From: Arabidopsis thaliana
Lineage: Eukaryota; Streptophyta; Magnoliopsida; Brassicales; Brassicaceae
Length of the DNA stretch: 64,000 bases
Reading direction: 5' to 3'
Assembly (NCBI RefSeq): GCF_000001735.4
Contig: NC_003074.8
Coordinates: 2,852,101 to 2,916,100, forward strand
Shown here: piece by piece, positions 33,165 through 35,576 of the stretch
How the letters are laid out: every line of letters starts with the position of its first letter
Position numbering within the stretch: the first letter of the stretch is position 1
Made by a program: the position numbers and the translations under genes
The notes under the pieces: model-generated
Seen by the model: the letters and a program-made list of their open reading frames with translations, nothing else
What the model was told of the DNA's origin: nothing
Database searches by the model: none

Positions 33165-33995
33165 CTAACACACTTGCATCATTTTATTAAGCAGAGCCAC
33201 CAACTCGGGATTCTCTAATGCTGCAGTCACACGTTCTTTATCCCCAAGTTGTTTATTGACTGCATTATAACATCAATTTGAGGATCAAATTCAAAACATT
33301 TACTTCCACTGCAACCAAAAAATAAAAATGAAAGTTTATACCTGTCGTCTCTTTATCATGACTCCCTGGTGCTACTCTCACATCAACCTGAGATTTCATT
33401 ACAACAAAATTAGCTTTAAGATTACAAAGAATATTCTTAATAAACAAAAATTGAACACAACACAACAACAATACCTTGAATCTAGCAGGTAAGCTTTGCA
33501 CAAGTTTGACTAAGATGCAAAGACCAATATGGGTTGGCAAGTGACAATGAGGAAGAGTTGGAGTGAATGTAATTCTGTAAAAAGATAGCACAACTTAATA
33601 GATTGGAGTAAAGAGAAAAAGCTATTAATCACAACATTTGTTTTTTCTTTTTACCTAACGTAACTCTTGTGATCATCAACTTCAACTGATTCTTCAGTAA
33701 GAACATTGAGATCTTCCAAAGAAAGTTCAGGATGCTCTGGATCTTTGATATCTCTTATACGATTTGTAGACTGTTAAGGGAAACAAAAAAAAGAAGATGA
33801 TCCAATAACAATATAAACATAACTACGAGAAAGTCATTGTCTTAGTAATGAATAACAAAAATTAAGGATATCAAAAATCTCGAGCTGATCAATTGGTTCT
33901 ACTGAAAACTCATCGGTACTGCTCTGATCAGTACGATAACGCCGTGTTCTCTTCGGATAAATAATTGGGTTCTTATTGGTTAATACAGAATCCAT
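33165..33995 (-). CDS. AEL2: AE7-like MIP18-family protein (cytosolic Fe-S targeting)
   Basis: Five exons on the minus strand: 33872-33995, 33655-33763, 33475-33574, 33342-33387 and 33165-33259; 157 residues, the same length as AE7 by memory. The N-terminus reads NKNPIIYPKRTRR, then DRIRDIKDPEHPELSLEDL, the DUF59 core with FTPTLPHCHL and VRVAPGSH, and the C-terminus NKQLGDKERVTAALENPEL. MIP18/CIA2B proteins join CIA1 and MET18 in the CIA targeting complex that hands Fe-S clusters to cytosolic and nuclear enzymes. The usual Cys of TPTVPHCS-type motifs is kept (PHCH). Intron 1 (33764-33871) is not GT-AG; it starts ATATCCTT and must end in AA to keep frame (see findings). The ATG at 33995 is chosen over an upstream in-frame one at 34016 because AE7 proteins start there. 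By memory At3g09380. Confidence 0.88.
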
Positions 33996-34484: not shown

Positions 34485-35576
34485 ATGAATGGAGAAGAGA
34501 CGACACCTTTTAAAAGAAGACAGATGACAATTCTGATGCTTCCTAATGATTTGCTATTCAACTGCTTAGCCCGCATCTCAAGATTGTATTATCCAACTCT
34601 CTCGTTAGTCTCCACGAGATTCCGCTCTCTCCTTGCTTCAACGGAACTTTATCAAACCCGAACCCACCTGGGCCGCACCGAGAGATGTCTTTATGTGTGT
34701 TTCCGACTATTTACCGAATCTGACCAACTACGTTGGTTCACGCTCTGTCAGGGACCATTTAACTCCAAAAAAATTTTGGTTCCGATTTCATCTCCTAATT
34801 TTCCATCTGCATCCTGGTCGGATGCTGCAATAGTCGGTCCTAACATCTATGCTATTGGAGGGTTAGTAAATAAGAATTATTCGTCTAGCGTCATGGTCAT
34901 GGATTGTTATTCTCACACATGGCGTGAGGCACCAAGTATGCATGTGGCCCGTTTGTCCCACTCTGTTTGTGTCCATGATGGGAAAATATATGTAACAGGA
35001 GGTTGCAAAAATCTTGATTCAACGAATTGGATGGAGGTTTTTGATACGCAGACCCAAACTTGGGAGTTTTTGCAGATCCCTAGCGAGGAGATATTTGGAG
35101 GCTCAAAGTACAGAAGCGTAGAGTATGAAGGAACTGTCTATGTAAAGTCTGAGGCAAAGGATGTGACTTACAAGCTGCATAAAGGTAGATGGCGAACAGC
35201 AGACATAGCGATAAATAAAGGGTGGTGATGTCCTTCATTATCCCATTATTGTGTGATAGAGAACGTGTTCTACCGTTATACTGATAGAAGAATCGAATGG
35301 TATGACTCCGAAAAAAGATTATGGACAACTTTGAAAGGTGTGGAAAAATTGCGTAGTTTTTCTCGTGTAAACTTGGTGAATTATGGTGGGAAAATGGCAG
35401 TTGTGTCGGTAGAGTATGTGTTCGGTAAGAAGGAGGCAAAAATTTGGTGGGCGGAAATTGCGATTGAAAAACGTCAAACGGGAGAGATTTGGGGAATGCT
35501 AGAGTGGCTTGACATTGTGTTTAGAACCAATGACAAGTCATATAGTTTAGAGCGTGCTCTTGCTACTACCATTTGA
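34485..35576 (+). pseudogene. F-box/kelch-repeat protein gene with an in-frame premature stop
   Basis: Intronless reading frame of about 363 codons. An N-terminal F-box ([32 protein letters not shown]-type, about residues 12-50) precedes kelch repeats ([22 protein letters not shown]-like [18 protein letters not shown]) and a C-terminal region ENVFYRYTDRRIEWYDSEK. A TGA at 35226-35228 interrupts the frame after NKGW, where relatives have Gly (GGA would be one base away); the frame then stays open to 35574-35576. Plant F-box/kelch proteins are SCF ubiquitin-ligase substrate receptors. The product as written is about 247 residues with F-box and two or three kelch units, so it may be a recent pseudogene or encode a shortened receptor. 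A related fragment lies 1.3 kb downstream. Confidence 0.8.

Follow-up and report, generated by a model that had tools for sequence, protein, structure and literature searches.

How is the first intron of an AE7-like gene on chromosome 3 of Arabidopsis thaliana removed, when it begins like an intron of the minor spliceosome and seems to end in AA? The gene lies in a 64,000-nucleotide stretch of DNA (hereafter the window), and a preliminary description made from the letters of that stretch proposed a rare U12-type intron with AT-AA ends. Here we compare the locus with its paralogues, with protein models of relatives, with the other exon junctions that its sequence permits and with described minor introns.

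Gene structure and identity

Five exons were recognized on the minus strand (Table 1), which when joined encode a protein of 157 residues. This protein has one match to PF01883 (FeS_assembly_P; 28.1 bits, cut-off 23.5) and, among solved CIAO2 structures, corresponds by sequence to MIP18 family protein galla-2 (6tbl_C, 1.1e-41). Since its best match among the relatives is A. lyrata 'protein AE7-like 2' (88%), and given its place on contig C3, taken to be chromosome 3, we infer that the locus is AEL2 (At3g09380). The names AEL2, AEL1 (At3g50845) and AE7 (At1g68310) are taken from passages of PMC3721309, according to which ae7 is not rescued by AEL1 or AEL2. AEL2 is a paralogue of AE7, a cytosolic iron-sulphur assembly protein.

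Elsewhere in the window, a long F-box/kelch-like reading frame (judged by eye) occupies 34485-35576 of the plus strand, has an in-frame TGA at 35226-35228 and is then open for about 115 codons. It is possibly a pseudogene, or it contains a short intron.

Table 1. Features of AEL2 in window coordinates, and intron 1 of its paralogues; slashes mark exon-intron boundaries
Feature	Position	Strand	Remarks
Exon 1, coding part	33995-33872	minus	ends ...GAGATTTTTG
Intron 1, 108 nt, phase 1	33871-33764	minus	AT...AA, predicted U12-type; from sequence and paralogue comparison
Putative U12-type 5' splice site ATATCCTTAA	33871-33862	minus	
Putative U12 branch-point word TCCCTTAAC	33781-33773	minus	
3' terminal AA of intron 1	33765-33764	minus	
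Exon 2	33763-33655	minus	begins ATCGTATAAGAG
Exon 3	33574-33475	minus	limits set by GT-AG ends and homology
Exon 4	33387-33342	minus	limits set by GT-AG ends and homology
Exon 5, stop codon included	33259-33165	minus	limits set by GT-AG ends and homology
Rival GT-AG intron, TCA/GTAGAACC...CTTAACAG/TCT	33902-33771	minus	product EFSSTNRIRDIKD
Second rival GT-AG intron, TGA/GTTTTCAG...CGTATAAG/AGA	33909-33754	minus	product STDEDIKD
AE7 intron 1, 436 nt	L011 637-1072		AT-AA, predicted U12-type
AEL1 intron 1, 97 nt	L012 1104-1200	reversed	AT-AA, predicted U12-type

Sequence elements and register of intron 1

AEL2 intron 1 reads ATATCCTTAA...TTTCCCTTAACAGTCTACAA, CTACAA being its final letters, and its removal joins the G at 33872 to the ATCGT that starts at 33763, which yields EIFDRIRDIKD. 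The coordinates and letters in the preliminary description (33764-33871) hence agree with ours, and its joined peptide IFDRIRDIKD was reproduced. With (A/G)TATCCTT as definition of a U12-type donor, ATATCCTTAA at 33871 belongs to that class. The branch consensus of U12-type introns is about TTCCTTAAC, which pairs with U12, and the distance from branch to 3' end is short, about 10-13 nt. The AEL2 word TCCCTTAAC corresponds to this in its letters as well as in its pairing with GTAAGGAA of the U12 gene, where 7/8 positions pair and one pair is missed; for the nine-base words of AE7 and AEL1 the pairing is 8/8 and 7/8, the branch A being bulged. Counted from the presumed branch A of AEL2 (the last A of TTAAC) to the last base of the intron the distance is 10 nt, and hand counts give 10 nt for AE7 and 13 nt for AEL1, all within the usual range. 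As in other members of the AT-AA subclass, the intron starts with AT and ends with AA, and its removal restores a conserved protein junction. If the cuts are moved by a base or two (TA...AA, AT...AT), the product is the same and, since such shifted cuts give identical mRNA, the splice register is settled solely by the donor motif.

Components of the minor spliceosome are represented in the A. thaliana genome by one U12 gene, one match to U11 and two matches to U6atac, while CCDC84/CENATAC, a splicing factor for A-type introns, has three exon matches in a single place.

Neither the motifs nor the reading frame prove the case. In a scan of the genome (119,662,809 bases, 7 contigs) the donor ATATCCTTAA was found 285 + 266 = 551 times, versus 186 + 173 = 359 times for the reversed control. 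For ATATCCTT with a branch word behind it, 60 sequences simulated with a first-order model lead one to expect about 0.35 occurrences on each strand of the 64-kb window; when the window itself was scanned, one such combination was listed, AEL2 intron 1. Rarity of the motifs was on these numbers rejected as proof. Reading frame was rejected likewise and counts as weak evidence, since 183 introns between the two exons are in frame and free of stops when nine dinucleotide pairs are allowed. That the AEL2 donor goes beyond chance follows from its position, as it occupies the same codon and phase as the same donor in two paralogues.

The same intron in AE7 and AEL1

The AEL2 protein has ten exon matches in the A. 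thaliana genome, which belong to three genes. All three have G/ATATCCTT...ACAA/ at one codon and in one phase: the junctions are GAGATTTTTG/ATATCCTTAA...TCCCTTAACAGTCTACAA/ATCGTATAAG in AEL2, GAGATTTTTG/ATATCCTTTC...TTCTTTAACAATACACAA/ATCATATAAG in AE7 and GAAATATATG/ATATCCTTTT...TCTTTGACGAAAATGGACAA/AGTATGTAAG in AEL1. Inspection of AE7, as had been advised in the preliminary description, thus extends the pattern to that gene. The three introns differ in length (108 nt in AEL2 versus 436 nt in AE7 and 97 nt in AEL1), and their interiors show no clear likeness beyond chance. Local alignment scores of the interiors were 12 for AEL2-AE7, 15 for AEL2-AEL1 and 10 for AE7-AEL1, versus shuffled means of 11.6 (sd 1.5), 11.1 (1.8) and 11.5 (1.8), so that the highest, AEL2-AEL1, lies 2.2 sd over its mean. 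The first 12 bases match at 10/12, 9/12 and 10/12 positions for the same pairs.

The AT-AA product is found in protein records of both paralogues, as IFDHIRDIKD in A. thaliana AE7 record P0016 and as IYEYVRDIRD in P0122, a short-contig record (source 'lgn') that matches AEL1 at 99%. A second A. thaliana AE7 record, P0040, runs into the intron (IFDILSSSNIKD).

AE7, AEL1 and AEL2 thus agree in the donor, the branch word, the distance between branch and 3' end and the phase, and the U12-type AT-AA reading put forward in the preliminary description was upheld. On grounds of homology we are confident, though short of certain, in reading 33871-33764 of AEL2 as a U12-dependent intron of the A-type (AT-AN) that has AT-AA ends. 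It is very probably removed by the minor spliceosome.

The junction in related proteins

The junction was then sorted in 240 relatives, taken from two lists of matches, of which the 120 best were used out of 158 in one and out of 2389 in the other, with the query fragment P0001 excluded; these records come from related species, include at times two models per gene and are not independent. Among them 142 have the conserved junction, 67 a DIL junction and 31 an otherwise altered one (98 altered). These figures result from a strict sorting, which replaced a looser first one (148 versus 92) that some DIL models had slipped through. The AEL2 protein that the AT-AA cut would give fits the junction of the 142 conserved relatives listed. 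In the 67 DIL models the protein continues with 'FDIL' or 'YDIL', as would a translation of GATATCCTT, a sequence read as DNA behind DIL in the three A. thaliana genes only. It would seem that many members of both the AE7 and the AEL1 group have retained the donor ATATCCTT, and that it misleads gene finders.

From the same collection, 27 short-contig or Trinity records were picked by hand on source and contig size, P0111 (short contig, conserved junction) being outside this set. The conserved junction is present in 26 of the 27, the exception being P0114, and we infer that such records are transcripts. P0114 itself, a contig of 1,152 bases with a grass-like AE7 protein, reads in frame through the whole intron, as if the intron had been retained in RNA.

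Thirteen records were grouped as AEL2-like by resemblance, without a tree. Six are intact (P0002, P0005, P0006, P0007, P0008 and P0015), and seven are altered (P0003, P0004, P0009, P0096, P0105, P0107 and P0116). The intact ones include records named 'AE7-like 2' from A. lyrata (P0002), Capsella (P0007) and Cardamine (P0005), which count in favour of the AT-AA junction; the seven altered ones count against it.

False models that enter upstream of the true 3' end also allow its last base to be estimated from the codon read across that end. For 49 models, from related species and with codons of false joins that could mislead, 25 gave A, 16 gave C, 2 each gave G and T, and 4 were unreadable. By this indirect reading the intron seems to have exchanged AT-AA for AT-AC ends or the reverse, and perhaps for AT-AG, at a single site.

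Alternative splicing patterns

The preliminary description also held that no AG or AC acceptor nearby keeps the frame. This is incorrect, as the AC at 33773 does so and both GT-AG introns of Table 1 do. Pairing of the U12 donor with AC 33773 would give an AT-AC intron of 99 nt with canonical ends, and with the product IFESTNRIRDIKD, in which the codons EST are extra. The branch word itself ends with this AC, which lies one base past the presumed branch A. The second splicing step demands a minimum spacing between branch and acceptor, and AC 33773 is unfit for that step because it is too close. The corresponding form was also absent from the altered junctions (0/98), the 142 conserved ones being excluded by definition. 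Lying inside the branch word, this AT-AC intron was rejected, and its use is hardly credible.

The serious rivals to AT-AA are the GT-AG pairs. The major spliceosome could take 33902-33771 or 33909-33754, both in frame and stop-free, in which case the U12 motifs in AEL2 would be a relic. Removal of 33902-33771 joins TCA to TCTACAAAT and shortens the protein by eight residues, and its junction is found in A. lyrata model P0003 and B. rapa record P0096. The public A. thaliana AEL2 entry, which we take to be of 149 residues, would fit this form. Junctions of the 33909-33754 kind occur in P0105 (Capsella), P0107 (Eruca) and P0116 (B. napus). Major donors usually have G at -1 and at +5, both of which TCA/GTAGAA lacks, and in the 33902-33771 product the conserved stretch PIDQLEIFD is missing, along with the greater part of helix 1. 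The U12 donor in AEL2 is perfect. Furthermore, A. lyrata has the full model P0002 as well as P0003 on equal-sized contigs, and Capsella has intact P0007 and P0105, again on equal-sized contigs. Since the GT-AG forms vary between species and between models, they resemble choices of gene finders. According to passages of PMC3721309 AEL2 is unable to replace AE7, therefore a defective product is thinkable. On balance we regard splicing by the major spliceosome as improbable.

The two forms were modelled with AlphaFold on the A. lyrata pair, using 29 relatives for each. The model of P0002 (AT-AA form) has a helix at 44-51, a mean pLDDT of 76.0 and a pTM of 0.67, versus a five-residue helix at 39-43, 69.5 and 0.61 for P0003 (GT-AG form). 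Compared with PDB the models match CIAO2B chains at 3.8e-14 (6tbl_C) and 5.2e-13, respectively. The short form is thus predicted to lose much of helix 1 with a fold that is still CIAO2B-like, and misfolding is weak as proof against it, since both models match CIAO2B.

Both kinds of intron could also be used, in proportions that decide how much long and how much short AEL2 is made, a reading that overlaps the others. Competition between two spliceosomes is conceivable since the U12 donor lies inside GT-AG 33902-33771, whose 3' end falls just past the branch word, and A. lyrata has long as well as short forms among its models (P0002, P0003). The short form is perhaps only a preference of gene finders for GT-AG, and we give dual use a small though appreciable chance.

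Proposed mechanism and significance

For the preferred AT-AA intron, we propose that the minor spliceosome recognizes ATATCCTT as donor and TCCCTTAAC as branch word. How far the 3' end lies from the branch point (10 nt), more than an AG or AC, would decide where the intron stops; a final A would therefore be tolerated. Splicing would restore helix 1 of the MIP18 fold (DQLEIFDR), and the intron was probably already present in the gene from which AE7, AEL1 and AEL2 descend. The course of splicing in vivo, the choice of 3' end and any role of CCDC84/CENATAC are here deduced from these comparisons.

The novelty is modest: the AEL2 AT-AA intron is of a known kind, and what is newer is its spread, its seemingly drifting 3' end and the damage to gene models. 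One overlooked splice type spoils gene models, 98/240 listed plant AE7-family proteins being altered at this junction. The occurrence of AA, AC and perhaps AG at one site may be a natural series on 3' end choice in minor splicing, and may also bear on the need of A-type introns for CENATAC in plants. Finally, the DIL signature (translated ATATCCTT) could be used to search other families for A-type minor introns that have been annotated wrongly.

Comparison with known minor introns

A counterpart appears to exist in animals. Intron 1 of human FAM96B (CIAO2B) accumulates unspliced when U6atac is blocked, according to passages of PMC4010461, and the primer given there for unspliced RNA reads, when reversed by hand, ATCTTCG/ATATCCGCCGCT, that is Ile-Phe-G followed by ATATCC (ATC TTC G/AT ATC CGC CGC T). 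Human intron 1 is in this part like that of AEL2 in codon, phase and the ATATCC after Ile-Phe-G, and unlike it in having GC at +7/+8, where AEL2 has TT. This suggests, from the 5' end in the human case, that one A-type minor intron has persisted in this position in both animals and plants. A wider scenario is that the CIAO2/AE7 intron predates the plant-animal split, that in plants its last base, with the end set by branch distance and reading frame, was free to drift between A, C and perhaps G, and that in AEL2 an overgrowth by GT-AG led to competition of spliceosomes, to long and short protein and to an Fe-S paralogue tied to minor-spliceosome activity. This scenario in full is speculative and rather doubtful.

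In titles and abstract openings on AE7, AEL1, AEL2, DUF59 and FAM96, no plant AE7-family intron was described as minor; AE7 is expected to be listed in U12DB, ERISdb and IAOD. Loss of CENATAC in human cells affected 92% of A-type introns, as given in passages of PMC8280824. AEL2 is like these CENATAC/CCDC84-dependent introns in its AT-AN ends, and the A. thaliana genome has a CCDC84 match.

The rarity that the preliminary description attributed to AT-AA introns must be tempered. Among the minor introns conserved in plants about 4% are non-canonical, and AT-AA accounts for almost 75% of the non-canonical ones and is their commonest ending (PMC10639083). For A. thaliana, passages on IAOD give 1.1% of U12 introns with ends other than GT-AG, GC-AG and AT-AC (PMC7367187). 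AE7-family genes are not named in section 30 and the accompanying passages of the plant survey (PMC10639083). With the plant AT-AA minor introns as described in those passages, AEL2 intron 1 shares the A-type donor, the U12 branch word and the terminal AA, and it is structurally no different from them.
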